Shown here piece after piece: positions 101 to 13,614 of a DNA stretch of 37,172 nucleotides. Numbering within the stretch: the first letter of the stretch is position 1; each line of letters starts with the position of its first letter. The stretch lies in contig JAFTRX010000064.1 in NCBI GenBank assembly GCA_017462015.1, positions 1 to 37,172 of the forward strand, read 5' to 3'. The notes beneath the pieces are model-generated. The model saw only the letters and a list, made by a program, of their open reading frames with translations. It was not told where the DNA came from and searched no databases. A program made the translations under genes and the position numbers. The DNA is from Lentisphaeria bacterium (GTDB lineage: Bacteria > Verrucomicrobiota > Lentisphaeria > Victivallales > Victivallaceae).

Positions 101-209
101 TCTCAGCATGTAGAATCATTGTGCCTCGAAAAACTGTATCAACTCTATTTTACAGCCGCGAAGTCCCGTAATGGATTATCGCGGCTATTTCTATGTTGGA
201 GAAAGAATA

Positions 210-1787
210 ATGGATTTTTGTGAAGAATGTGGTTCAAGAATATCTGTTGATTGCCGATTTTGTGAAAATTGCGGTACAGCAATTGACATGGTTAATGACA
301 AAATGAATACAGACGTTGTAACAGCAATTGATTTGTTTAAAAGTTTCAATTGGCAAACAACTTGGCTGGAAGCTGCCGAGTTGTGTAATTGCTCTGATCA
401 CGATTTGGGAATTATCATAACTGATGAGCGCAAGCTTTTAGATATGATCCCTGTAGACAAAAATTCTTTCAATGAGTTAATCTTGTCTTATATAAATAAT
501 GCAAAAACACGCCGTGTTGATTATTATTATTTAGATTTATCGAATAACTGCATCAATAATTTGGATAGCGAAACAGCACTTGCAGATATCATAAGAACAT
601 TGAAGCAATTGGTCAATGTCGCACGTCCGAAATATTGTTTCATATTGGGAAATGAGAATATTGTTGATTTCATGGTGTGGGAAAACAAATCTCCTGATGA
701 TGACGTAAATGTTTTTTCAGATTTACCATATGCCAGCTTGAATTGCAATTCTCCATGGGAGGGACAACGGTATGATTTTACTGAAATCATGCGGGTTGGA
801 AGATTAACAACATACGAAGGTGAAACTTTTGCACAATTTGAACGATATTTTTATAATGTGATGAATACTGCAGAAAAAGTTTCATCAATTATCCCGTACT
901 GCTTGAGTGCTTATGAGTGGAAAGAAGAATCTCAACATGAATTTTCTACAATTTCAGAATCGCTCATAGACACATCGCCGGAAACAACCGACAATATCGT
1001 ACAACAAAAATTTGAAAATAATACAAATCTGTTCTTCTTTAACTTACATGGAAGCGATAAAACCAAATTCTGGTACGGGCAAAAAAACAACAAATATCCG
1101 GAAGCGTTGTCTCCAAGTGCTTTGAAGAATCATTCTGCTGCATATTTTTTGGGAGTAGAGGCTTGTTATGGCGCAAATTATGCAAACAATATTTCTGCGG
1201 AAAATTCCATTTTGCAAATGGCATTACAAACAAAATGTCTCGCATTTTTAGGTTCCAGCAAAATCGCGTATGGAACATCGGAACCTGAAGGGAGTTGTGC
1301 TGATATCGTCGTCGGAGAATTCATTCGACATATTTCAAAAGGAGAATCTGCAGGGGATGCATATGTTTACGGATTGGAAAAATTATTTTCAGACGATGAC
1401 ATAAGTGATGCCGAAATAAAAACATTTGCAGAATTTGCTTTATATGGAGATCCGTCGGTAAGAGCTTTCCCCGATATCAAGAACAAGTGCAAATTTAATA
1501 AGAAAACCGTCAAAAAAAGCTTGTTTGTTCCGATGCCGGATGTTCTCAACGCAACGCGATTATCTTTAACCCAAATAAATGAAAAATTGGAAAAGCAAAT
1601 TGATGCGTTTGTCAGTAAAATAATACCGGAAAGTATTTTAATGAATTCCACCCAAAAAGTTTATCATATGGAAAATAAAAGATACTACCAAAAAGTTTAT
1701 ATATCAAAAAAAGATGATATTACAAACATTGCAAAGGTTTACTTCAATGGAAACGGGAACGTGTTAAAACTGTTGTTTTCAAAGTAA
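210..1787 (+). CDS. Zinc-ribbon protein with gingipain/caspase-like (C25) protease domain
   Basis: A 525-residue protein. I start it at 210 because GGAG at 198-201 sits eight bases ahead and the protein then opens directly with a zinc ribbon (CEEC at 4-7, CENC at 18-21). An upstream in-frame ATG at 171 would add 13 unconvincing residues. The body resembles peptidase family C25 (gingipain fold, clan CD). It has SDLPYASL near 170-177, VGRL near 196-199, the probable catalytic His in FFFNLHG (H280), the probable catalytic Cys in GVEACYGANY (C319) and a C25-like LYGDPSVRA at 411-419. Unlike classical gingipains it has no signal peptide, so it should act in the cytoplasm. It is the first gene of a tight operon, 15 bases ahead of the next gene. 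The protease fold is fairly certain from motifs; its substrate and role in the system are unknown. Confidence 0.8.
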   Translation: MDFCEECGSRISVDCRFCENCGTAIDMVNDKMNTDVVTAIDLFKSFNWQTTWLEAAELCNCSDHDLGIIITDERKLLDMIPVDKNSFNELILSYINNAKTRRVDYYYLDLSNNCINNLDSETALADIIRTLKQLVNVARPKYCFILGNENIVDFMVWENKSPDDDVNVFSDLPYASLNCNSPWEGQRYDFTEIMRVGRLTTYEGETFAQFERYFYNVMNTAEKVSSIIPYCLSAYEWKEESQHEFSTISESLIDTSPETTDNIVQQKFENNTNLFFFNLHGSDKTKFWYGQKNNKYPEALSPSALKNHSAAYFLGVEACYGANYANNISAENSILQMALQTKCLAFLGSSKIAYGTSEPEGSCADIVVGEFIRHISKGESAGDAYVYGLEKLFSDDDISDAEIKTFAEFALYGDPSVRAFPDIKNKCKFNKKTVKKSLFVPMPDVLNATRLSLTQINEKLEKQIDAFVSKIIPESILMNSTQKVYHMENKRYYQKVYISKKDDITNIAKVYFNGNGNVLKLLFSK

Positions 1788-1802
1788 AAACGGAGGAAGT
1801 TT

Positions 1803-2039
1803 ATGGAACAAAAAACATATACAGGGACGATTGTCTTCTTGAGTAAAAACGAAGGTTCAAAAAGTGAATCTTTCTATCCGTTTCTTTATCAGAATAAAAA
1901 CAATTATATCAAATTGTTTTTTAGAGATGACAATCCTTTTGAAAACAATATATTTGATCAACTCGACGGCTGTGTGGCAACAGTATCTGGCGAAATAAAC
2001 GCCAATGGCGAATTGATTGTTTCAAAAATAGAAAAATAA
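1803..2039 (+). CDS. Small protein of unknown function, possibly OB-fold
   Basis: A 78-residue protein with a strong ribosome binding site (GGAGG at 1792-1796) before the ATG. It has no signal peptide, membrane segment or cysteine motif. The pattern is mostly beta: an N-terminal strand (TYTGTIVFLSKNEG), a central IKLFFRDDNPFE stretch and a C-terminal VATVSGEINANGELIVSKIE strand pair. This is reminiscent of small OB-fold domains that bind nucleic acid or assist other proteins, but I do not recognise a family. It lies 15 bases after the protease gene and 32 before the SPFH gene, so it is very likely translated from the same message and may be an accessory or regulator of its neighbours. Confidence 0.7.
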   Translation: MEQKTYTGTIVFLSKNEGSKSESFYPFLYQNKNNYIKLFFRDDNPFENNIFDQLDGCVATVSGEINANGELIVSKIEK

Positions 2040-2071
2040 ATCGTTGATAACATTATTCAGGGGTATTTATT

Positions 2072-4417
2072 ATGAAAAAATGTCATTTTTGTGGAAAAGA
2101 ACTCAAAGATACTGCTAAATTTTGTGGTGGATGCGGAAAACAACAGGTGAGCGAAAACGCATCCCAAAACATTTGCCCGGCGTGTAAAAATCCTCTTCGG
2201 CTTGGAGCTAAATTTTGTGGAAAATGTGGAACCTCTCTTCAAACTGCATACGCAAATGAGGTAACTGCACAAAACAATCAAGAGGTCTCATCAAATTCAA
2301 AAGATGTTGCGTTAAGCGAGTACACTGGCAATGTCGGAGGATATCTCTATTGGAATATTCAGCAAGGTCAGCTCGCCGTAAAAATAGATGCAGATCTTCT
2401 CGCATCTTATGGCGGAAAAGTACGTGGAATTGACATTCAGGAGGGAGTTAAAGCCCTGCTCTTTATTCATGGGAAACTCATTGGGCAACTTGATAGTGGA
2501 CATTATCCATTTAAGGATTTGCAAGATGAACTTCCTGCAGATGAAACCCCGGGAGTTGTAAGACGTTTCATCGATCGAATCGGAGCATTTTGTGTCAGTC
2601 TTGTCGATAAAGAAAAAGCTGAGGAAATGCGGAGGAATGCTTCAAGAATTCCGTTTTGCTTTGTTTTAATCCGTACACATGAATTTCCGCTTGTTTTTAA
2701 TTTTAACAATGCGACGACTGCAAATATAAGGTCGGATGTTGGTCTGCATCTGCTGTGTAAAATATCTGATATCAATGCATTTTACAACAATTTGCTTGTC
2801 GACAGTAAATTTGTGGCATTTGAAACTTTTGCTAAACGCTTGTCGCCATTGTTTTTTACGAAAGTGAATCAAGCATTGTCAGCAGTGTCTCCCAATGCTG
2901 TAAGTAATAACATTGAATTGCAAAAGTCCCTGCTTCCAGTTCTTCGTGAAACCGTTGCCCAGATTTATCCTTTCTGTACGGTAAGCAATATAATTCAACT
3001 GACAGCCGATCATGCAGAGTTGGAAAATATCCGCGTCATGCAGGAAGAATTGTATATTGCCGAACAACAGCTTATTGAATTGTCCAAACGCAATGATTTT
3101 TTTAATCGCCGGCAAATTGTTGTGAATGAACAAGAGTTGATGGAACTTAGGACTTCCGGTGATCAGGATTTGGCCAAATCCCGTTTGACCGCGTACTATG
3201 CGGCAAAAAATGAAAAAATCTATGAGGAAATGGCTCTTACGGAAGATGAAAAAGAAAAATTTGACTTGATGCTTTCTGCGCAGAAGAAATTGCGTGAAGC
3301 CAAATCCGCAGAAGAAATTGCCGTTGCAATGCATGAGTTTCGCAAGAGCGGCTTGTTGCGTGATCAGGAAATTGAGACATTACAGCACAAAATTGCTCAA
3401 GATGCCAAGCTCCGTGACCTTGACGATGCACAAGTTTTGGCAATGGCAACTGTGCAGAATCAGATGGCATTGGATCAACAAAAATTGGAATGGGAAATTC
3501 AAATCGGCAACAAGAGAATCCAGAACCAATTTGATCGTCAGCGTATTGAAGATGCATATCACGATGAAAAACGCGATAAGGAATATGCGTTTACCGATCA
3601 GCGCAGAGAAAAAGATGCTGATTTTTCTGATAGCCGCCGCAATGCGGATGCGGCATTTGAAGATGACCGCCGCCGCAGTACGATTGATCTTGATGATCTG
3701 GAAATGCAAAAGCAACTTGATCGATTGGCTCGGGCACAGTCTATTCGCCAACAACGGGAAGATGCAGAACATCAACGGGAAATGGAAGTTGCCGATGCTG
3801 CACGCAGACATGAACTTGATACGCAACGTCTGGCTCAAGAAGCTGAAAAGGCAAAGTTGGATGCCGCTAATGAGGAAAAGCGCATCTATGCAGGAATGAC
3901 TTTTGAGCAAATTATGGCTGCCAATCCGAATATTTCTCCTGAGGCAGCACAAGCTTTGGCTAAAAAATTCGAAGCTGAGGCTGCTGCGTCAATGGCGCAA
4001 GCGAATATTGCTCAAAACGATAAAACCGCCCAAATGGCAATAGATCAGCGTGATCAAATGATGGCTTTTATGCAACAACAAATGGCAATGATGAAGGATA
4101 TCTCCATGGCTGGAATCAATGCTGGTGGTGGTCATCAGCAAGCAATGCTTGATGCAAAACAAGCGGAATTGGATAGAACGCGGGCTGATGCGTCTGCTAA
4201 CAGCGATCGTTTTGTTGACGGCATGAAAACAACGATCGACGCCGTCAGTAACATGAATCGTCCTGTTATATCTCAACCGCAATCAGTTTTGCAATCCTCC
4301 CCCCAAGTGCAATATGCCGCAGTCCTGACCTCTGGGCAAGCGAAGAAGTGTCATAAATGTGGTGCTCCGGTTGAATTAGGAGACAAATGTTGTTGCGAAT
4401 GTGGAACTGAACTTTGA
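2072..4417 (+). CDS. Zinc-ribbon SPFH (YdjI-like) protein with long coiled coil
   Basis: A 781-residue protein. Two zinc ribbons open it (CHFC...CGGC at 4-21 and CPAC...CGKC at 35-52). Residues about 90-345 look like an SPFH/band 7 domain of the YdjI type, and residues about 320-645 are highly charged, heptad-like coiled coil rich in DRR/DAAFEDDRR patterns. An Ala/Met/Gln-rich stretch follows, and a third zinc ribbon closes the protein (CHKC...CECG at about 764-779). In Bacillus subtilis YdjI, an SPFH protein with a C-terminal zinc ribbon, is encoded with the PspA homologue YdjF and is linked to membrane stress. No transmembrane segment is evident, so membrane attachment would depend on the SPFH domain or a partner. 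It is likely to oligomerise and may be the scaffold of the system. The family call is firm; the role is inferred. Confidence 0.82.
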   Translation: MKKCHFCGKELKDTAKFCGGCGKQQVSENASQNICPACKNPLRLGAKFCGKCGTSLQTAYANEVTAQNNQEVSSNSKDVALSEYTGNVGGYLYWNIQQGQLAVKIDADLLASYGGKVRGIDIQEGVKALLFIHGKLIGQLDSGHYPFKDLQDELPADETPGVVRRFIDRIGAFCVSLVDKEKAEEMRRNASRIPFCFVLIRTHEFPLVFNFNNATTANIRSDVGLHLLCKISDINAFYNNLLVDSKFVAFETFAKRLSPLFFTKVNQALSAVSPNAVSNNIELQKSLLPVLRETVAQIYPFCTVSNIIQLTADHAELENIRVMQEELYIAEQQLIELSKRNDFFNRRQIVVNEQELMELRTSGDQDLAKSRLTAYYAAKNEKIYEEMALTEDEKEKFDLMLSAQKKLREAKSAEEIAVAMHEFRKSGLLRDQEIETLQHKIAQDAKLRDLDDAQVLAMATVQNQMALDQQKLEWEIQIGNKRIQNQFDRQRIEDAYHDEKRDKEYAFTDQRREKDADFSDSRRNADAAFEDDRRRSTIDLDDLEMQKQLDRLARAQSIRQQREDAEHQREMEVADAARRHELDTQRLAQEAEKAKLDAANEEKRIYAGMTFEQIMAANPNISPEAAQALAKKFEAEAAASMAQANIAQNDKTAQMAIDQRDQMMAFMQQQMAMMKDISMAGINAGGGHQQAMLDAKQAELDRTRADASANSDRFVDGMKTTIDAVSNMNRPVISQPQSVLQSSPQVQYAAVLTSGQAKKCHKCGAPVELGDKCCCECGTEL

Positions 4418-4432
4418 AAAAGGATCCTTAAA

Positions 4433-6706
4433 ATGGTTAAATGTATCTCTTGCGGAGCGGAAAACGAGGATTCTGCTAAATTTTGTGAATCTTGCGGCAG
4501 TGAAATGCCGCAAGATAAAGAATGTCCTTCTTGCCATAGCCGAGTTAAGTTGACTGCTAAATTTTGTGCAGAATGTGGATTCAATTTCAATAAACAGCAA
4601 TTTGCAGACAAATCGGGATCCATGCTTTCTATGGGCGATAAAAATGTTATCGCCGGAGATGTTTTTGGGGGAGATAATATCAAAATATCCGGCAATGCAA
4701 CCATTGTAAAAAATGAGGACGAAACCAAAAAAGTCGTACAATGCCATGTTTGTGGACGCAGAGTAACAATAGTTGAATCCTTTGTTTGTACTTGTTGCAA
4801 CAAAATTACCTGTTTAAGTTGTTTTAATGGAGCTGACAAGGTTTGTGATGATTGTTCCAAACAAAATATTACAAATGACGAAACCATCTATATTAACGCG
4901 TTGCATGAATTCTATTCAGCAGATAATGCATCTCCTGAAGCAAGTTACAAACTCTATAAATTAAAAGAAAAAATTGATTTACCCTCTGACAAAATAACTG
5001 AATTGGAAGCATCTGTAAAAAATGATACGTTAATGAAAAAATATTCATTGACATTACCTCTGTTTAATATTCCACATGACATCGATGATGAATTTGCCAA
5101 GGACTGCTATCAACAAATGCAAAAACTTCTTGAAGTTCCTGATCTTTATTTGGAAGCTCTTGAAAATTTAGCTGAAGCAGGTCATATGCAATCCCAATAT
5201 GATCTTGGAAAACATTATCTTTCTGCAAATGATATAAAAGACAATGAAGAATTGGCAAAGACATGGTTGGAGAAAGCTGCCAAGCAGGGGAATGTCGAGG
5301 CGATGTATTCATTATTCCAAATAAATCATGCCAAAAGACATTATGGTGAGGCTGAAATTTGGTTAGAAAAAGCCGCAACAAATGGACATATAGATGCCCA
5401 GTACGCCTGGGGAATTGAGATCAAAGGTTATCGTAAAGATAAAGGTATTGAATTTCTCAAAATGGCGGCAGAGCAAGGACATGTTGATGCGTCATACCAA
5501 TTAGCGGAAATATGTTATGGGGAAGATGCTGTAAAATGGTATCGCAAAGCGGCGGAGCAGGAGCATGTTGAAGCGGCACTCAGCTTGGCAAGTGCGTATT
5601 TTTATGGGAGCTTCGGAGTCGATCAGGATTGGAAAGAAGCTGTAAAGTGGTATCGAAAATCCGCTGAGCAGGGAAATCCCGATGCGCAATATCATCTCGG
5701 AGAATGTTTTTGTTATGGTCATGGCGTTGATGAGGATAAGGAAGAAGCCGTAAAATGGTATCGCAAAGCAGCGGAACAAGGATATGACCACGCACAATAT
5801 GAACTCGGAAAGTGTTATTTTTACGGGAGAGGAATCGCTAACGATAATACACAGGCTGAATACTGGTTTAATAAAGTTTTAAAACAGAACCCTGAAATCA
5901 GTGTGAAAGAATATCTTGATCAAATAAACGAATTAAGAGAGATTACTGTACGTGCCGAACAAGGAAATATTCAAGCACAATTGCAACTCGCGAAGCATTA
6001 TTGTACTGTGGATTTTAGGAATGAATCAGAAGCACTTGTTTGGCTGAAAAAAGCAATTGATCAGGGATATTTGCTACAAGATGATGACTTGAACCATTTG
6101 GGGATTGAGCAAGTAATTGTTTTAGCTGAACAGGGGTGCGCAGAAGCATCATATTTTTTAGGCAAATGTTATCAAAATGGCAGAAGAGTAAACGAAAATG
6201 TTGTTGAAGCAATTAAATGGTTCTGTAAAACACCCCAAGGAATAGAACAATTAAATGATTTTTCTGTTGATGAGCTTATTTTAGCAGAACAAAAGTTCGG
6301 ATATCCGGAAATCTCTGCAACGATCGGTTTTAAATACAGAATTAATGCAGAGAACAATGAAGCGCTTCAGTGGTATAGTAAAGCTGCCGAGCAATATAAT
6401 GCTTATGCGTTATTGAGCATTTGTGATCGTTTTGATTGCCGTTACAATGAAGCAACAATAAGTATTCTTCATGAATATGAAAAGAAATCCGACATAATAG
6501 CATTATATTGTTTGGCGCATTATTATTTATTTCAAGACAATGCTGACGAAGCCGAGCGATTGTGGAATATGATTGACAAGGATGAATTAGAAGAAATCAG
6601 CAATCATATATATGAAATGTATGGCGATTGGGCACCCGTATTTCTTCTTTTTTTTGAGCGCAAAATAAAAGAATGCAAAAATAGAATCAATAATTGCACA
6701 ATTTGA
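4433..6706 (+). CDS. Zinc-ribbon protein with Sel1-like (TPR) repeats
   Basis: A 757-residue protein starting 15 bases after the SPFH gene. Two zinc ribbons lead (CISC...CESC at 4-21 and CPSC...CAEC at 31-48). Next is a glycine/aspartate/asparagine-rich beta-like segment (GDKNVIAGDVFGGDNIKI, 68-85), then a third, different Cys cluster at 104-141 (CHVC, CTCC, CLSC, CDDC) that looks like a treble-clef or B-box type zinc domain. Residues about 250-480 and 540-690 are Sel1-like repeats with the usual A-x-W-Y-x-K-A-A-E-Q-G and A-x-Y-x-L-G-x-C-Y-x-x-G patterns. Sel1 proteins are protein-interaction scaffolds, often in stress and signalling complexes. No signal peptide or enzyme motif is visible. 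It probably links the zinc-ribbon partners of this operon to another protein. Confidence 0.85.
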   Translation: MVKCISCGAENEDSAKFCESCGSEMPQDKECPSCHSRVKLTAKFCAECGFNFNKQQFADKSGSMLSMGDKNVIAGDVFGGDNIKISGNATIVKNEDETKKVVQCHVCGRRVTIVESFVCTCCNKITCLSCFNGADKVCDDCSKQNITNDETIYINALHEFYSADNASPEASYKLYKLKEKIDLPSDKITELEASVKNDTLMKKYSLTLPLFNIPHDIDDEFAKDCYQQMQKLLEVPDLYLEALENLAEAGHMQSQYDLGKHYLSANDIKDNEELAKTWLEKAAKQGNVEAMYSLFQINHAKRHYGEAEIWLEKAATNGHIDAQYAWGIEIKGYRKDKGIEFLKMAAEQGHVDASYQLAEICYGEDAVKWYRKAAEQEHVEAALSLASAYFYGSFGVDQDWKEAVKWYRKSAEQGNPDAQYHLGECFCYGHGVDEDKEEAVKWYRKAAEQGYDHAQYELGKCYFYGRGIANDNTQAEYWFNKVLKQNPEISVKEYLDQINELREITVRAEQGNIQAQLQLAKHYCTVDFRNESEALVWLKKAIDQGYLLQDDDLNHLGIEQVIVLAEQGCAEASYFLGKCYQNGRRVNENVVEAIKWFCKTPQGIEQLNDFSVDELILAEQKFGYPEISATIGFKYRINAENNEALQWYSKAAEQYNAYALLSICDRFDCRYNEATISILHEYEKKSDIIALYCLAHYYLFQDNADEAERLWNMIDKDELEEISNHIYEMYGDWAPVFLLFFERKIKECKNRINNCTI

Positions 6707-6727
6707 ATAATTTGATTTGTTACGACA

Positions 6728-7393
6728 ATGATTATAATATTTTATATGCAATCTATTATGAAACAATTAACGGACATTTCTGATATAAAACAATTACTTG
6801 AAGATTGTTTGAAAGAATTTGCAAACAAAGATTTTGATCTTATTGGACTTGGACGGGAACGGGCAATTTCTTGCAAACTTGCTATGATTATGCATGATAT
6901 AGTTGTGCATAGCTATGATATTGGCAAAATGTCTGTTGATGCAGAGTATGACAGATATTTGAATCAGGATAAAGAGATAAAAGTTAGGGCGGAACAATGT
7001 TTAAAGTGTACGAATGAAAAATTATGTTGTAAACGCTATATTGATACTCTGGGACAAAATATAACTCGTTTGAGGATTCGTCCGGATATAATATTTCATG
7101 GGCGGAAAGAAGAAAACAATAATTGTTTTGTTATTGAGGTGAAACTTTTGCGGACAGAGCAATTACGCAAGAGAGTGTATCGCGCATATAAATATGATTA
7201 TGCAAAACTTGCTTTCATGACTTGTGGCCGCCATTTGAATACAAAAAATAATATGTGGTTTCGATATAAACTTGGAATACATTTGACATTCCATCAATCA
7301 GGCGTGCTTGTCCTATATTTTAAGAATGCAAAAATTGTGGAAACAAAAAAATATACTTGGGATAAGTTGAAGGAATACGATAATGAAATGTAA
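6728..7393 (+). CDS. PD-(D/E)XK nuclease-like protein
   Basis: A 221-residue protein with no obvious ribosome binding site; starts at 6728, 6746 or 6758 are all possible in this AT-rich sequence. It resembles a widespread uncharacterised family with an N-terminal (V)DAEYDRY motif (70-76) followed by RPDIIFHG (118-125) and FVIEVKL (134-140). D120, E137 and K139 fit the PD-(D/E)XK nuclease active site. A Cys cluster (C91, C94, C100, C101) precedes it and could bind metal. Its last 11 bases overlap the next gene, which implies translational coupling. In context it could be the nucleic-acid-cutting effector, although members of this superfamily are not always active nucleases. Confidence 0.7.
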   Translation: MIIIFYMQSIMKQLTDISDIKQLLEDCLKEFANKDFDLIGLGRERAISCKLAMIMHDIVVHSYDIGKMSVDAEYDRYLNQDKEIKVRAEQCLKCTNEKLCCKRYIDTLGQNITRLRIRPDIIFHGRKEENNNCFVIEVKLLRTEQLRKRVYRAYKYDYAKLAFMTCGRHLNTKNNMWFRYKLGIHLTFHQSGVLVLYFKNAKIVETKKYTWDKLKEYDNEM

Positions 7394-8522
7394 AAATTGC
7401 GGAACAGAAAACGATGCCGATGCCGTTTTTTGCGAATTATGCGGTACGAAACTTGGTTCACAGGGATATAATATTTCTGAATTAGATAAATATAACAGAG
7501 TATCAAGTGTCTTTTCTCCTCCGCTGGACAATCTTGCAGAAAAAGATATTGATTCCAAGTTGTTCTATGAAATCTATGGAGGTGATCTGCAATTCATTAC
7601 ATTCAAATTGAATAAGAAACAATGTCTCATTGCTCAACCGGGGGCAATGACATATATGGATGAAAACGTTGAGATGACGACATCCTGTGATGATGGTTCA
7701 AATCCTGATGCCGGATTTTGGGAGCTGCTTGGAAGCGCCGCAGCACGTTTTTTAGCTGGTGAATCATTTTTTCTCACTCACTTTTCTGGAAAAAACTCTG
7801 ACTCTTACGGAGAGGTTTCTTTTTCTTCACCATATCCGGGTAAAATTGTTCCTGTGAATCTGAAAGAACACAATTCTGCGATTTTATGTCAGCGCAGTGC
7901 TTTTTTAGCAGCATCAGCAGGAACCAAAATTAAAATCGCTTTTGCAACAAATTTTGGTTCAGGACTGTTTGGCGGCACAGGATTTATTTTGCAACATCTC
8001 GTCGGTAATGGAATGGCTTTTATTCATTCTTGTGGAGAAATCAAAGAACTGAAACTTGAAAATCAAACCATCAGAGTAAATCCAGGATGTATTGTAGCAT
8101 TTGATGAATCTATCAAGTACAACATCACTCCTGCCGGTGATTTGACTACTATGTTTTACGGAACAAGAAGTGTTTTCCTGGCGACGCTTTCCGGTACCGG
8201 CAGTGTCTGGATCCAATCAATGCCTTTTAATTTATTAGCAAATAGAATTTGTTGCGAAGGTATTAGACAGGGATTGTTTGAAAATAAAAATGAAGAAAAA
8301 ACACCAAGAGCATCTGATTTTATGATTAATTTAGGCTTGGATCATCCGAAATTTTGTGCCGCATGTGAATATTTTACCGGCAGACGGGAAATTTCAACGA
8401 ACAGCCATGATGAAGTCATTGTATGGGCAACTCGCGATCAATGTCTTTGCTCTAAAAACAGAAAAAACACATATGCAACATCCGGTGATGGTTGTTGGGA
8501 TTACAAGGAAGTAACTGATTAA
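7383..8522 (+). CDS. Zinc-ribbon AIM24-family protein
   Basis: A 379-residue protein overlapping the nuclease-like gene by 11 bases. A zinc ribbon opens it (CKNC at 3-6, CELC at 17-20). Residues about 58-290 match the AIM24/DUF124 (TIGR00266-like) beta-sandwich: CLIAQPGAMTYMDENVEM, FLAGESFFLTHFSG, a glycine-rich GSGLFGGTGFILQHLVGNGM and VNPGCIVAFDESIKYNI. A C-terminal extension of about 80 residues has several Cys (FCAACEY, CLCSKN, GDGCW) and may form another metal site; it is not part of the usual AIM24 fold. The yeast mitochondrial AIM24 affects inner-membrane organisation, and bacterial members have no settled role. Pairing with an SPFH protein two genes upstream suggests a membrane-associated assembly, which is an inference. 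Confidence 0.8.
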   Translation: MKCKNCGTENDADAVFCELCGTKLGSQGYNISELDKYNRVSSVFSPPLDNLAEKDIDSKLFYEIYGGDLQFITFKLNKKQCLIAQPGAMTYMDENVEMTTSCDDGSNPDAGFWELLGSAAARFLAGESFFLTHFSGKNSDSYGEVSFSSPYPGKIVPVNLKEHNSAILCQRSAFLAASAGTKIKIAFATNFGSGLFGGTGFILQHLVGNGMAFIHSCGEIKELKLENQTIRVNPGCIVAFDESIKYNITPAGDLTTMFYGTRSVFLATLSGTGSVWIQSMPFNLLANRICCEGIRQGLFENKNEEKTPRASDFMINLGLDHPKFCAACEYFTGRREISTNSHDEVIVWATRDQCLCSKNRKNTYATSGDGCWDYKEVTD

Positions 8523-8530
8523 GTATAAAT

Positions 8531-9907
8531 ATGGATGAATTACACACACTGATCAAAAATTCCTCTGTCGCTGTTTTTAAGCAACATATAACTAATATCA
8601 AACAAGACGATCTTGATAAATTTTTAGATAGTTGCTTGTTAATATCTGCTGCTCTCGGACGACTTGATATAATAAAAGTGATTTATGAGGAGTTCAATCA
8701 TTATTACAGCGGTGATGAGGAGTGTTATCCTAATTGTACTGGAAAAACTCCATTATTACGGGCTGCTGAAAATGGATTTACTGACATTGTAAAGTATCTG
8801 TTGGAACATGATGCAAATCCTTTTGCGGTTGATTCTCACGGCTGCAATGCAGCAATGAATGCCATTATGAGCGGCAATGTAGAGTTAGCACAATTTTTGA
8901 TAAAGGATTGTAAAGTTGCCTGGCAGGGGTACACTTGGGAAGGTACTTCTGCATTGCAATTTGCGTTGCTCAGCGGTTCGCCACGGATGTTCGGCTTCGT
9001 TTTATCTCTTGGAGGACTTGAATATAACAACTCTCAATATTCGTTTGATGATGAGCATCTGTTGCAATCGGTGAACGGCGAATATCAAATATCTCCTAAA
9101 CAGCGAAAAATGCTTCATGGCAAATTTACGCAAATTTTAGATAACCATCAAAAGAATGATTGCTCTGCAATTTGTGTTGCTGCAGAGTACGGAGATTTGC
9201 ATAAAGTAAAACAGTTGATATCGTCGTTTGAATACCCCATTATTCCGGAATCGTTGGTGTGTGCGGCCTGTAAAGGCGGCAGTTATGAAATATTCCATTA
9301 TTTTGTTGATGAAATGCAATTGGCTGTTCCGGAACAGGCTCTCGCATATGCGGTAACTGGAGCCAATGAAAAATTGGTCGCTGAATTGATATATGAACAT
9401 AAGCAGAATATATATCAAACTTCTGCCAACGCTAAAACATTACTGCATATCGCTGTAAAAAATGGACATTCCCAGACAAAAGCTGGACGCTATGAAACCA
9501 GAAGAATAATCCGCGAGCATTTGTTGGAATGGGGGCAATTGGATGTCAATGCTGTAAGTTGTAATGGGTCTGTTTTAGATTTGGCTTGTCAAAATGGAGA
9601 CATCGATATTATAAAACTTCTGGTTGATTTAGGGGCATTTGTAGATATTGATGCTTTTTGCAGTGCGGCGTCATGTAATAATGTTGAAGTAATGAAATTT
9701 TTATTGCAGAGCAATTCATCTCTTTCTGTTGATATGCAAAAAAATGATGGAACAACTGCATTACATGAAGCTGTAAAAGCTGGAGCAACAGATTCTGTAA
9801 GTTTTTTATTGGAACAAAATGCCAGTACCGATCTCATGGATAATGATGGAGTTACTGCAACTGATTTAGGAAAAATGTTCAGTATAACATTGTCTGCTGT
9901 AAAATAA
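8531..9907 (+). CDS. Ankyrin-repeat protein
   Basis: A 458-residue protein beginning eight bases after the AIM24 gene. Clear ankyrin repeats are seen at about 71-128 (GKTPLLRAAENGFTDIVKYL, then NAAMNAIMSGNVELAQFLI), 300-345 (TLLHIAVKNGH), 345-400 (SVLDLACQNGDIDIIKLLV) and 405-445 (GTTALHEAVKAGATDSVSFL). The segment between about 130 and 290 contains more degenerate repeats (AICVAAEYGDLHKVKQLI). There is no signal peptide, membrane segment or catalytic motif, so it should act inside the cell as a protein-binding adaptor. Ankyrin and Sel1 scaffolds in the same operon are compatible with a multi-protein sensing complex. The partner is unknown. Confidence 0.85.
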   Translation: MDELHTLIKNSSVAVFKQHITNIKQDDLDKFLDSCLLISAALGRLDIIKVIYEEFNHYYSGDEECYPNCTGKTPLLRAAENGFTDIVKYLLEHDANPFAVDSHGCNAAMNAIMSGNVELAQFLIKDCKVAWQGYTWEGTSALQFALLSGSPRMFGFVLSLGGLEYNNSQYSFDDEHLLQSVNGEYQISPKQRKMLHGKFTQILDNHQKNDCSAICVAAEYGDLHKVKQLISSFEYPIIPESLVCAACKGGSYEIFHYFVDEMQLAVPEQALAYAVTGANEKLVAELIYEHKQNIYQTSANAKTLLHIAVKNGHSQTKAGRYETRRIIREHLLEWGQLDVNAVSCNGSVLDLACQNGDIDIIKLLVDLGAFVDIDAFCSAASCNNVEVMKFLLQSNSSLSVDMQKNDGTTALHEAVKAGATDSVSFLLEQNASTDLMDNDGVTATDLGKMFSITLSAVK

Positions 9908-9921
9908 GGGATCAGAGAAAA

Positions 9922-10680
9922 ATGAAATCAATATCAATTATTTGTTTATGTCTTTTCAGTTCTTTCGCATTTACTGCTGAACGTGAAAATTTACTGACAG
10001 ATTTTCACAAAGAAAATATTGCCGTCCAAAAAGAATGGGACAACGCAATGACCCAAAATGCACTTACAGGAGCTGCCGGGAACAATTGGCGTGTCGCTCA
10101 ACATCAACTTTTCAGGGCATTGGATTATAAACTCAGAAATACTTCAGAACTTCAAAAACGTTTAGATATTTTGAATAAATTTCATGTTTTAAGCAGAAAA
10201 GTCCAGAAAATTTATGATACGCCAAGAAAAGATCGCGGTAGCATTATTGGAATGCAGATATATAGTCACATTGCCTATTTGATGCAACAACAAATTGACA
10301 TATTGTTATTGGATAACAAAACTGAACTTCAATGGAATCGTTTGGCAAATGCAGAATTGGTTATTGATGGCAAAGAAGTTGAACTTAAGGATGGAATTGC
10401 AGAATACTGTACTGTCATGTACAAAGAGAATGTCACCCTGGAAATAATTCTTTTTCCGAAAGATACTTTTTTATGCCGGAATCGAAATTTTGCTGTAATA
10501 AAAACCGATATCAGATTTGCGGGTAATGATGATTATTCATCTGTATATCTCTATGAATTAAAAAATAACAAATTGACTCTTAAGGCAAAATGCGAGTTTC
10601 CGTCTATTACCAAATGGGAATTAAGTGAAGATATATTTACTTTTTTCAGCGGTGACAAAAAGCAAAAGATAAAACTTTGA
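9922..10680 (+). CDS. Secreted protein of unknown function
   Basis: A 252-residue protein and the last gene of the island operon, 14 bases after the ankyrin gene. The N-terminus is a signal peptide (MKSISIICLCLFSSFAFTA, cleavage expected near residue 19) without a lipobox. The mature part has an alpha-helical, charged first half (about 20-135), then a predicted beta-rich second half (about 145-250) with repeated strand patterns. I do not recognise the family. It is the only island protein with an export signal, so if the operon is one system this part works in the periplasm or outside and could sense envelope state. Confidence 0.7.
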   Translation: MKSISIICLCLFSSFAFTAERENLLTDFHKENIAVQKEWDNAMTQNALTGAAGNNWRVAQHQLFRALDYKLRNTSELQKRLDILNKFHVLSRKVQKIYDTPRKDRGSIIGMQIYSHIAYLMQQQIDILLLDNKTELQWNRLANAELVIDGKEVELKDGIAEYCTVMYKENVTLEIILFPKDTFLCRNRNFAVIKTDIRFAGNDDYSSVYLYELKNNKLTLKAKCEFPSITKWELSEDIFTFFSGDKKQKIKL

Positions 10681-10761: not shown

Positions 10762-11337
10762 TTAATTACTTGTTATTTGATGTACTCTGGTTTTACTGAT
10801 GCCGCATTGCTTGGCGATTGCCGCAAGGGATAACCCTTGATCCCGTAATTCTTTTATGCGTTTCACATCGGCAGTTTGAGGTCTGCCAAGAGTTTTGCCC
10901 GAACGGCGAACTCTTTCCAGTCCAGCGCGAGTACGTTCAGAAATACGGATGCGTTCCTGTTTGGCAAGAGCTGCCATAATTGAAATAATTGCATCGGTAA
11001 ATATTCCCAATGAAGAAATATATTCTTCTGTATATGAATGCCATTTTACTTTGTAATCATCCAAGTGGGTTAAATATTCAAGCGTCTTTCGAGAACCTTC
11101 CCGACTGAAACGGTCAAGACTCCAAAATAAAATAACATCTACTTTTTTCTGCCGTGCCATTGTGAAAACTTTTTTCAGACCGTCGCGCTCATTGGCAGAT
11201 TTTCCGCCAGAACAAATGTCGGTAATTACTTCAATAATTTCCCATCCCTGGCGTTTTGCGTACTCCTGAAGTTGGATGACCTGATTTTTTACTTCCTGTT
11301 TGTCAGAGGACACTCTGCTGTAAATCACGCATCTCAT
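10762..11337 (-). CDS. Small serine recombinase (resolvase/invertase family)
   Basis: A 191-residue protein. The ribosome binding site AAAGGAG (11346-11352) sits eight bases ahead of the ATG. The catalytic domain is complete: YSRVSSDKQ with nucleophile S10, a core with ILFWSLDRFSREG (the DRxxR-type motif) and the E-helix AALAKQERIRISERTRAGLE. A C-terminal helix-turn-helix of the Hin/resolvase type follows (LSLAAIAKQCGISKTRVHQI). The length is that of Tn3-type resolvases and invertases, not of large serine integrases. It lies convergent to the eight-gene operon and close to the truncated tRNA, so it probably belongs to the island. Whether it resolves dimers, inverts DNA or catalyses integration cannot be told from sequence. 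Confidence 0.92.
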   Translation of the reverse strand: MRCVIYSRVSSDKQEVKNQVIQLQEYAKRQGWEIIEVITDICSGGKSANERDGLKKVFTMARQKKVDVILFWSLDRFSREGSRKTLEYLTHLDDYKVKWHSYTEEYISSLGIFTDAIISIMAALAKQERIRISERTRAGLERVRRSGKTLGRPQTADVKRIKELRDQGLSLAAIAKQCGISKTRVHQITSN

Positions 11338-11741
11338 TATTTTTTCTCCTTTCGAAACCGTTCAGAAAAGGGTATCTGGTTTTAATCAATTTTTACGCTG
11401 AAAATTTTTTTCAAAAAGCTCGTTCACAAAACGGTCGTTTTTTGAACATTATTAATATGCCATCATTAATAGATTAATCAAGTCGACTGGTTCAAAATTT
11501 TTCAAAAATGTGTCGACTATAAGAAAAAACGGAGAAGTTTTTCCTCCGCAGCCAATATCAAGTGGAAAAATTTTTTAAAAATTTAGCTAAATCAGATTTT
11601 ATCTTTTCGTAAATTTTCCGTAATCGATGGGGCATTGACAATTTTTTTGAAAAAAAGTGCAAGTTACCACATTTTGTGCTAATAGGTTAAAAATAAAAAT
11701 GTTGCAGTCAAAATGCATTAGGGCGTATAAAAGAGGGAACA
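11338..11741. other. Non-coding, AT-rich stretch with inverted and direct repeats
   Basis: About 400 bases without a credible gene, between the recombinase start and the tRNA remnant. It holds an inverted repeat at 11423-11448 (11-base arms, ten pairing, loop GGTC), two copies of GTCGACT 30 bases apart (11482-11488 and 11512-11518) and near-repeats such as cattattaat/catcattaat and ttcaaaattt/ttcaaaaatg. Resolvase target (res) sites usually lie upstream of the recombinase gene and consist of such dyads, so this is a plausible recombination site and promoter region. Confidence 0.5.
11423..11448. repeat. Inverted repeat upstream of the recombinase gene
   Basis: The arms 11423-11433 and 11438-11448 are complementary at 10 of 11 positions around a four-base centre. 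It lies about 90 bases upstream of the recombinase start codon and could be a binding dyad for that protein or an operator. Confidence 0.5.
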
Positions 11742-11782
11742 GCTCCGGAGGCAGACGCTCTATCCAGCTGAGCTACGGGTGC
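11742..11782 (-). pseudogene. Truncated tRNA-Arg(CCG), 5' half only
   Basis: Read on the minus strand from 11782, the sequence is a clean 5' tRNA half: acceptor strand GCACCCG, TA, D-arm GCTC-AGCTGGATA-GAGC, G, anticodon stem TCTGC and loop CTCCGGA with anticodon CCG (Arg). Identity with a normal tRNA stops after the first two bases of the 3' anticodon stem. The expected GCAGA is GCTGT, and no variable loop, T-arm (GGTTCGAATCC) or acceptor complement (GGGTGC) follows. The gene is therefore broken at the anticodon arm, a common attachment site of integrating elements. I found no matching 3' half in the window. Confidence 0.75.
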
Positions 11783-11924: not shown

Positions 11925-12599
11925 ATGTGTAACGACAGAACCGATATTTTTCTTGCCGGCGATTCTACCATGTGTTTTTATACTGCCGATCGTGCTCCCT
12001 TGACCGGATGGGGGATGATGCTCCCCCGGTTTTGCCGGGAGAATGTCCGCGTTCACAACCATGCGCAAGGCGGTTATTCCACTAAAAGTTTTCAGCGTTC
12101 CGGTTGGTTTGATCGGCTGCTTAACGAACTCCGCCCCGGCGATCATGTCGTCATTCAATTCGGTCACAATGACAAACATCCGGCTGATTACCGTCCGCTC
12201 GCTCATACTGAAATTGATGAATTTTCTGAAAATCTGCGCCGCTGGATCTCCTTGGTCCGCGAGCTTGGCGCCGTCCCCACTTTGAGCACCACCACCATCG
12301 AATGGGCTGAAAATGGTCTGGATAAGACTGCTCCGCTTCTGGCAAAGTACAACGCCGCTCTGCTGGATGTTGCCCGCGAGTGTGGTGCTGATGCTGTTGA
12401 TTTGAATTCATACGCTTACTCTGAATTGAGCAAGCTGCCGATGGCTGAGATCCATCAATATCACATGGCGACCAGCGGTCTGGAGGATAAAGCGGATGAC
12501 TTCTGCCATCTCAAGAATAATGGCGCGGAACTTTATGCTTCTTATTTTGTAGAATTGTGCCGCCGTCAGAATATTGCAATTTCAACGTGTTTTAAATAA
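11925..12599 (+). CDS. SGNH/GDSL esterase, rhamnogalacturonan acetylesterase-like
   Basis: A 224-residue cytoplasmic protein. I chose the ATG at 11925 because CAGGA precedes it and the SGNH block I begins ten residues in; the longer reading frame upstream runs through the promoter. Block I is AGDSTM with nucleophile S14, block II GGYSTKSF holds the oxyanion Gly, block III is QFGHND (N82), and block V is DDFCH with D192 and H195. The GDSTM and GHND forms are typical of carbohydrate esterase family 12 (rhamnogalacturonan and related acetylesterases, YesT/RhgT-like). It should remove acetyl groups from imported pectin-type or other acetylated sugars. It is 13 bases upstream of the PHP gene and heads the operon. 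Confidence 0.85.
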   Translation: MCNDRTDIFLAGDSTMCFYTADRAPLTGWGMMLPRFCRENVRVHNHAQGGYSTKSFQRSGWFDRLLNELRPGDHVVIQFGHNDKHPADYRPLAHTEIDEFSENLRRWISLVRELGAVPTLSTTTIEWAENGLDKTAPLLAKYNAALLDVARECGADAVDLNSYAYSELSKLPMAEIHQYHMATSGLEDKADDFCHLKNNGAELYASYFVELCRRQNIAISTCFK

Positions 12600-12612
12600 A
12601 AGGTCAAAGATT

Positions 12613-13614
12613 ATGTGGATAAAAGGTGATTTGCACGTCCATTCCCACTGCTGTGGCGATGGAACGATCTCCGTGGAAGAAACGGTTGAACGCGCCAGAG
12701 AGTTTTGTGATTTTATGGCGATTTCCGGGCATTGCCGGACTCCGGAATTCTGGCGTACCGAAAATCAGTATGCTGAAGTTGTTGCCGCACGCAAAAAGTT
12801 TGACATTCCCATCTTCTGTACTGCTGAAGTGGAGTTCCCTATTCCCCGGCACGTCATGTTTGTCACCACTCCTGATGACCGGGAGCTGGAATTGCAGCGT
12901 GTTCTGGTTGAAAAATTTGACCGCTATACCGGTGTCGAAGGATTGGATGCTGCTTTGGCGGAACTGCGTTATGTTGAAGAAAACTGGAAAGACAACTGTT
13001 TTATGATCTTCAACCACCCCAGTTCTCCCGATGTTGCTCTGGAAAATCTGCTCAAGCTGGCGGAATCTCCGGTTTTCCGCGTTCTCGCCTGCGTTGACCG
13101 TGGTGAGCGGCGCGCTCCGCAGACTTGGGATATCGGTGCGGAATGGGATGAACTGCTCTGCCGCGGTTTCCGCATTTCCACCCGGTGCGGATCGGATTTT
13201 CACAAACACTTTACTGACGGAGGTCATGACTATTATCCCGGAGAATTTGTACAGGATTGTCTCAATGTGGAGAGTGTTGATTACGCTTCCATTCTCAAAG
13301 CCTACCGCAATGGAAACTTTTACACCACCTGCGGCAATCTGATTTCCAACCCGGAATTTTCCGTGACTTGCGGTGATGGTGCGCGCCGGATGCACCTTGC
13401 CTTTGACCTTAACGGTGAAATGGAGAAAGTTGAAGTTGTTTCCGAAGGTAAAGTCGTCGCTGAATTTACGGAGTTTGCCGATCGTTTTGATCAGACTTTT
13501 GCGGTTCCAGAGGGTAAGTATTACCGGGTGCGCGGTACTGGAAAGATGCAGAAACGCAAATATTCCGAAGGGGAATTTGAACCGGTTTTTCTTCTCAATC
13601 CGCTCTATTTCTGA
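12613..13614 (+). CDS. PHP-domain metal-dependent hydrolase
   Basis: A 333-residue protein. The ATG at 12613 is preceded by AAAGG and puts the first PHP motif at residues 6-10 (DLHVH, with H8 and H10). Further motifs are ISGH (H40), CTAEVEF (E72), FNHPSSP and GSDFHKHF near the C-terminal half of the barrel, which together supply the His/Asp/Glu ligands of a multi-metal site. The family includes phosphoesterases related to histidinol phosphatase and nucleotide-cleaving enzymes; many members in glycan clusters remain unassigned. A C-terminal part of about 80 residues looks beta-rich. Its substrate is probably a sugar phosphate or cyclic phosphate made by its neighbours, which is an inference from operon context. 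Confidence 0.82.
   Translation: MWIKGDLHVHSHCCGDGTISVEETVERAREFCDFMAISGHCRTPEFWRTENQYAEVVAARKKFDIPIFCTAEVEFPIPRHVMFVTTPDDRELELQRVLVEKFDRYTGVEGLDAALAELRYVEENWKDNCFMIFNHPSSPDVALENLLKLAESPVFRVLACVDRGERRAPQTWDIGAEWDELLCRGFRISTRCGSDFHKHFTDGGHDYYPGEFVQDCLNVESVDYASILKAYRNGNFYTTCGNLISNPEFSVTCGDGARRMHLAFDLNGEMEKVEVVSEGKVVAEFTEFADRFDQTFAVPEGKYYRVRGTGKMQKRKYSEGEFEPVFLLNPLYF

Follow-up and report, generated by a model that had tools for sequence, protein, structure and literature searches.

Proteases of the gingipain (C25) family are familiar mainly as secreted enzymes and carry a secretion signal. The SPFH fold builds rings and cages, and an N-terminal membrane anchor is common in this superfamily. In the canu system, the caspase CanA is found in complex with CanB, with which it co-purifies, and it activates a nuclease (PMC12799240). 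In Bacillus subtilis, YdjI, a Band 7 protein of the cytoplasm, seems to connect PspA with membrane partners (PMC9239133, PMC10936438), and the PspA-YdjGHI set includes a zinc-ribbon partner (PMC9239133). Here, we analysed a 37,172-bp stretch of DNA from a Lentisphaeria bacterium (GenBank assembly GCA_017462015.1, positions 1-37,172 of contig JAFTRX010000064.1; hereafter, the window), which carries a run of eight genes, g1 to g8. We propose that g1-g4 constitute a mobile protease switch in which a C25 peptidase (g1) is assembled through zinc ribbons on an SPFH scaffold (g3), together with an OB-fold regulator (g2) and a recognition arm (g4); we hold this proposal to be evenly poised between right and wrong.

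A preliminary description of the window, made from its sequence, had presented the eight genes as co-directional, tightly spaced members of one system. The open reading frame (ORF) map bore out the layout in full: all eight ORFs lie on the forward strand at the positions given there, separated by 8-32 bases, with an 11-base overlap of g5 and g6 as the sole overlap. N-terminal zinc ribbons are common to g1, g3, g4 and g6 in a Pfam scan, that of g1 being below the Pfam cut-off. The preliminary description overlooked both these shared ribbons and the occurrence of g1-g2 without a scaffold gene. In our analysis, what remains of the eight-gene system is a core of four genes, at the heart of which stand two (g1-g2).

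Recurrence of the core genes

The genes g1, g2 and g3 are adjacent in four of four other genomes with this g1 subtype: G012, of the same genus as the window genome; G093, of the same order; G156, of the same class; and a Treponema metagenome-assembled genome, which we infer to belong to another phylum. A g4 relative lies nearby in three of these four (G012, G093 and Treponema). The order is g1-g2-g3-g4 in G012 and G093, g1-g2-g3 in G156, where a further ORF follows g3 before the contig ends, and g4-x-Sel1-g3-g1-g2 in Treponema. The g1 protein of the window shares 50% identity with that of G156, from another order, 41% with that of Treponema and 38% with that of G012, from its own genus. Counting the window, g1-g2-g3 come together in five genomes at protein identities of 29-51%, once reordered, which argues against the view that these genes are mere island cargo, accreted without a common function. 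The island context, the variable accessory genes and the fact that two contigs end too soon for the whole set to be judged speak for that view, which we consider very unlikely. Conservation of gene order, the check proposed in the preliminary description, was thus found for g1-g3 and mostly for g4, and beside none of the loci for g5-g8, two of the contigs ending early.

The core is rare. A search with g3 matched 14 of 100 genomes, but 11 of these matches were confined to residues 1-74, i.e., the zinc ribbon, and were dropped. Beyond its ribbon, g3 was found in 3 of 100 relatives and, within the genus, in 2 of 34 genomes (own genome included in both counts); of 197 genomes in the class, four have the g1 subtype. 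Based on these counts, a housekeeping operon was rejected; a fixed operon of the phylum would have refuted the earlier view, and the sporadic distribution on mobile elements speaks against one. A search of 387 genomes gave seven matches (four core-type, one distant C25 protein in G167 and two to the zinc ribbon only), and another of 296 genomes gave 20; apart from those in Treponema itself and G616, all 18 were limited to the first 123 positions. Scanning 84 candidate stretches in named genomes yielded one g3 relative, that of Treponema. Among the matches listed, the whole g4 head was matched in 2 of 240 genomes (the window genome and G093; G012 is not among these), and the other 27 g4-head matches listed were mostly zinc ribbons. 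A viral origin was also rejected: viral-contig scans gave no relative of g3, of g5 or of the SPFH domain, and for g1 they gave two 23-residue zinc-ribbon matches and nothing more. No phage record matched g1 or g5, and at the limits used g3, g5 and g8 had no relative on plasmids.

The g1-g2 pair is more widely spread than its scaffold. When a rhizobial C25 protein and its small neighbour were used as tblastn queries, they retrieved the identical 10 plasmid records and no others; several of these are near-copies, which leaves about seven distinct loci. A GSKSE motif lies 53-103 nt past the C25 stop codon in nine of the nine scaffold-less loci examined, i.e., seven plasmid loci, G616 and G167 (L038, L039, L148-L152, L067:8587-10388 and L041; rhizobial and other plasmids and two genomes). 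Among the plasmids, two of whose records have no gene table, one set of neighbours comprises genes for trypsin-like protease, ferritin-like, radical SAM, and halogenase or peroxidase proteins, and another comprises caspase, chitosanase and L,D-transpeptidase genes; on several plasmids, trypsin-like or caspase proteases lie within about 7 kb of the pair. Because no SPFH gene or g4 head was seen beside the pairs on plasmids, in G616 and in G167, the scaffold is dispensable for the persistence of the pair. Since the pair recurs in varied neighbourhoods, g1-g2 is an old unit, and the SPFH set is one of its settings. About 4 kb from one C25 pair, L039:13506-15416 encodes a protein with both a caspase domain and a GDSL-like region, and in G616 a GDSL-like protein is encoded upstream of the pair.

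Predicted proteins of the core

The g1 gene (210-1787, forward strand) encodes a predicted C25-family cysteine peptidase with an N-terminal zinc ribbon. Its ORF opens at 171; homologues start near MPFCENCG/FMFCEECG, aligning with residue 14, and GGAG precedes the ATG at 210. By this comparison, ATG 210, rather than 171, is probably the start. The predicted catalytic residues His293 (codon 1047-1049) and Cys332 (codon 1164-1166), numbered from ATG 171, are invariant in 14 of 14 rows of the protein alignment, and we take this pair to be the catalytic one; the C25 family belongs to the caspase clan. Five of the eight homologues scanned pass the Peptidase_C25 (PF01364) cut-off (L019, L021, L038, L039 and L041), two fall below it (L020 and L067) and one, from G156, has no match (L040). 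Plasmid proteins annotated as C25 peptidases share 26-27% identity with g1. Based on the sequences, g1 is a C25-type peptidase that retains the His/Cys pair, and the gingipain/caspase-like call of the preliminary description stands by way of the homologues.

The g2 gene (1803-2039, forward strand), the constant neighbour of the C25 gene, encodes a 78-residue protein with a GSKSE-type motif. A model built from six sequences (predicted local distance difference test, pLDDT, 84) has a five-stranded barrel and one short helix; its best Protein Data Bank (PDB) matches are OB folds, e.g., PriB and SSB, and the model suggests an OB-like protein.

The protein of the g3 gene (2072-4417, forward strand) bears zinc ribbons at both its N- and its C-terminus; a long charged region in it appears coiled-coil-like by eye. 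Residues 88-354 were modelled with a pLDDT of 77. The model gave 30 PDB matches at E<=0.001 (best E 5e-7), all titled as SPFH proteins or complexes containing one, including erlin, prohibitin, HflK/C, HflK/C-FtsH, stomatin, flotillin and QmcA. Although the Pfam Band_7 profile matched neither the window g3 nor three homologues, the predicted fold upholds the earlier SPFH call, and g3, as modelled, carries an SPFH domain. No membrane anchor was seen ahead of this domain.

The HflK/C-FtsH, prohibitin and erlin complexes among these matches bring in another reading, envelope or protein quality control, in which an SPFH oligomer would recruit a regulatory protease (cf. HflK/C-FtsH) and the AIM24 protein of g6 would add a membrane function. 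YdjI (PMC9239133, PMC10936438) offers a precedent, and strongly hydrophobic segments occur in the g4 relative of G093. However, g1-g7 of the window have no strongly hydrophobic segment, the eight proteins include neither an AAA protease nor PspA, and g3 occurs in so few genomes of its genus, on mobile elements; we regard this reading as unlikely. The sensing of membrane disturbance, postulated in the preliminary description, is not supported in the window, given the same lack of strongly hydrophobic segments in g1-g7, G093 being the locus whose g4 does have one.

The g4 gene (4433-6706, forward strand) encodes a putative adaptor that consists of a double zinc ribbon, a GDKNVIAGDV segment (4628-4720, forward strand), a RING-like segment with eight cysteines (4742-4855, forward strand) and Sel1 repeats. 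The head, i.e., the double ribbon, the GDKNVIAGDV-like segment and the eight RING-spaced cysteines, is common to four loci; a Prok-RING_2 match, below the cut-off, is confined to the Treponema relative. The tail varies: the window, G012 and G093 have Sel1 repeats here, whereas the Treponema relative has a beta-helix, and a Sel1 gene of its own is placed between g4 and g3 in that genome. In PADLOC, g4 matched PtuA over 45 residues and nothing else. The G093 relative (L020:12404-17581) has 1725 residues, and its strongly hydrophobic segments lie near the C-terminus, unlike the g4 of the window.

In the proposed switch, the shared zinc ribbons would assemble g1, g3 and g4 (and the accessory g6) on the SPFH oligomer, and the variable tail of g4 would recognise the trigger. 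Clustering, or release from g2, would then switch the protease on, and the active protease would cleave host or invader proteins, so that growth or the invader would be stopped. The nuclease-like, AIM24, ankyrin and secreted genes would have been added in the window island as extra outputs or sensors.

Several observations weigh against this proposal. The g1 protein of the window has no Pfam protease match at E<=0.1, nor has its G156 homologue a Pfam protease match, and neither the g1 sequence nor the g1 alignment retrieved a solved C25 structure. All PDB matches of the g2 model are weaker than E 0.001, and thus none supports the OB assignment at that limit. The SPFH matches of g3 have modest template-modelling (TM) scores, 0.29-0.48 over the query. 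Zinc ribbons like those of g1, g3 and g4, from which we infer the assembly, are widespread in these genomes. In G156, which is 95% complete, the g4-head search matched only the zinc ribbon of g3, and no SPFH or g4-head relative was seen beside the pairs on plasmids or in G616 and G167. Additionally, PADLOC-DB 2.0.0 has no match to g1-g3, and no clear defence system showed up among the genes scanned next to the core in G093 and Treponema.

Island borders and accessory genes

The GC content is 0.384 at 210-6706 and 0.361 at 6707-10680, against 0.499 at 11784-37172, and 1-kb bins up to 12000 range from 0.33 to 0.45. The low GC content ends at the 5′ half of a tRNA-Arg(CCG) gene (11740-11782, reverse strand), which marks the right boundary of the island; both features confirm the island named in the preliminary description. 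Rfam gave no tRNA match for this half and one chance match. The broken tRNA is identical over about 47 bases with an intact tRNA region on contig C111 (G000:C111:34000-42015), in which a tyrosine integrase gene lies beside the intact tRNA-Arg(CCG) gene on the expected side and the GC content near the integrase is low, 26-40% towards the contig end. This region is the probable left end of the island, and contigs C111 and C9 would hold the two ends of one island. The broken tRNA, the intact copy with its integrase and the GC shift are together the features of a tRNA-integrated island.

In G018, an SGNH remnant comes after the intact tRNA, together with an orthologue (80% identity) of the window gene at 12574-13614, as would be expected of a right side without an insertion. 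Of the 22 tRNA loci from other genomes, one had such a right side; none matched the left flank beyond 15 residues. A search for an empty site by way of the SGNH neighbour gene gave paralogues only. In G012, the four-gene cassette lies between two direct copies (300 bp, 98% identical) of the beginning of a cation-efflux gene (L021:3743-4042 and 12357-12656), with no recombinase ORF of at least 80 codons between the duplicated ends. The window shows a clear GC shift, G012 and G093 a slight one and Treponema hardly any. Taken from sequence comparisons, among them the closer match of the window g1 to G156 than to G012, the core set is sporadic and mobile, with horizontal spread.

A gene for a small serine recombinase of the resolvase type (10762-11337, reverse strand) lies inside the right end of the island. 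On the other side, the window starts at the contig end, which the preliminary description also overlooked, and therefore genes upstream of g1 may be missing. Positions 1-52 hold AGCA repeats at the contig start, followed by a hairpin-like inverted repeat.

The accessory genes, all on the forward strand, are g5 (6728-7393), PD-(D/E)XK-like; g6 (7383-8522), a zinc ribbon with an AIM24/TIGR00266 domain; g7 (8531-9907), an ankyrin-repeat protein; and g8 (9922-10680), which has a hydrophobic, signal-like N-terminus and no Pfam family. The AIM24 and ankyrin calls of the preliminary description, like that of Sel1 in g4, are above the Pfam cut-offs. The PD-(D/E)XK call of g5 comes from a motif seen by eye, RPD...VIEVK, with no profile, relative or structure match, and no homologue was found in 99 relatives. 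Neither g5 nor g6 has a match anywhere in genomes G012 and G093, and no relative of g5-g8 stands beside the core in G012, G093, G156 or Treponema, of which G093 and G156 offer little downstream sequence; for g7 and g8 the comparison with these genomes covered the stretches beside the core loci.

The tight spacing on one strand and the zinc ribbon that g6 shares with the core would suit a single obligate complex of all eight genes. The absence of g5-g8 relatives beside the core in G012, Treponema and the shorter G093 and G156 stretches, and of g5 and g6 throughout G012 and G093, makes such a complex most improbable. The earlier claim of one eight-gene system is not supported, and neither is DNA cleavage as a part of the core.

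A role in anti-virus defence is plausible and is one of the two leading readings. In a version that models the locus on canu, g1 would cleave and activate effectors, here including the g5 nuclease, in abortive infection by phage. It can draw on the mobile islands, on a protease with a constant partner and a nuclease-like neighbour, and on the canu precedent (PMC12799240). Additionally, g7 matches the PADLOC candidate PDC-M72A (2.4e-19) and g8 weakly matches PDC-S04 (0.003), and in G616 a gene like NsnA/PD-T4-2_A lies 2 kb from the pair, with a phage terminase near. However, the matched part of g7 is its repeats, PADLOC misses g1-g3, and g5, whose nuclease fold is putative, is neither seen beside the core elsewhere nor matched in the 99 relatives. 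The caspase and metallo-beta-lactamase (MBL) nuclease of canu are both missing from the eight proteins, in which Pfam matched no AAA protease, PspA, caspase (C14) or MBL nuclease. We consider this version possible but rather doubtful. Beside the Treponema set, L019:2246-3774 encodes a small protein like the C-terminal domain of the RNA polymerase alpha subunit and a sigma-70-like protein, the sigma part of which matches the MzaA model.

Comparison with known systems

No named system with this gene set was found, as the preliminary description had supposed; among the papers listed in searches of PubMed Central, none, judged by title and start of abstract, describes it, and hence its novelty is provisional. 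Tentatively, and with rather less than an even chance of being right, we suggest that such loci represent a class of mobile bacterial conflict systems not described before. A C25 protease with its OB-fold regulator would sit, by way of zinc ribbons, on an SPFH oligomer; the variable tail of a RING-like adaptor would recognise the trigger, and this protease platform would differ from caspase and CHAT systems. If the proposed switch is real, a cytoplasmic, mobile C25 protease with a constant OB-like partner on an SPFH scaffold would add a class of regulated bacterial proteolytic switch and a compact model of how SPFH rings control proteolysis. As the C25/OB pair also occurs by itself on rhizobial plasmids, its two genes lend themselves to a simple test.

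Like the C25 gingipains (PF01364), g1 has a His and Cys pair, and its homologues match their profile as given above; unlike them, it has no signal peptide and has an N-terminal zinc ribbon, a constant OB-like partner and an SPFH operon. The window set resembles canu (PMC12799240) in that a caspase-clan protease, a partner and a nuclease-like gene occur together, whereas its protease is of the C25 type, it has no MBL nuclease, its nuclease-like gene is accessory, and it has an SPFH scaffold and a zinc-ribbon adaptor. HflK/C-FtsH, prohibitin and erlin share the SPFH fold with g3, and in HflK/C the SPFH protein likewise binds a protease; in contrast, the core has zinc ribbons, is sporadic, and shows neither an anchor nor an AAA protease. 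The PspA-YdjGHI set of B. subtilis resembles the core in pairing a cytoplasmic Band 7 protein with a zinc-ribbon partner, whereas the eight genes encode no PspA and have a C25 protease instead.

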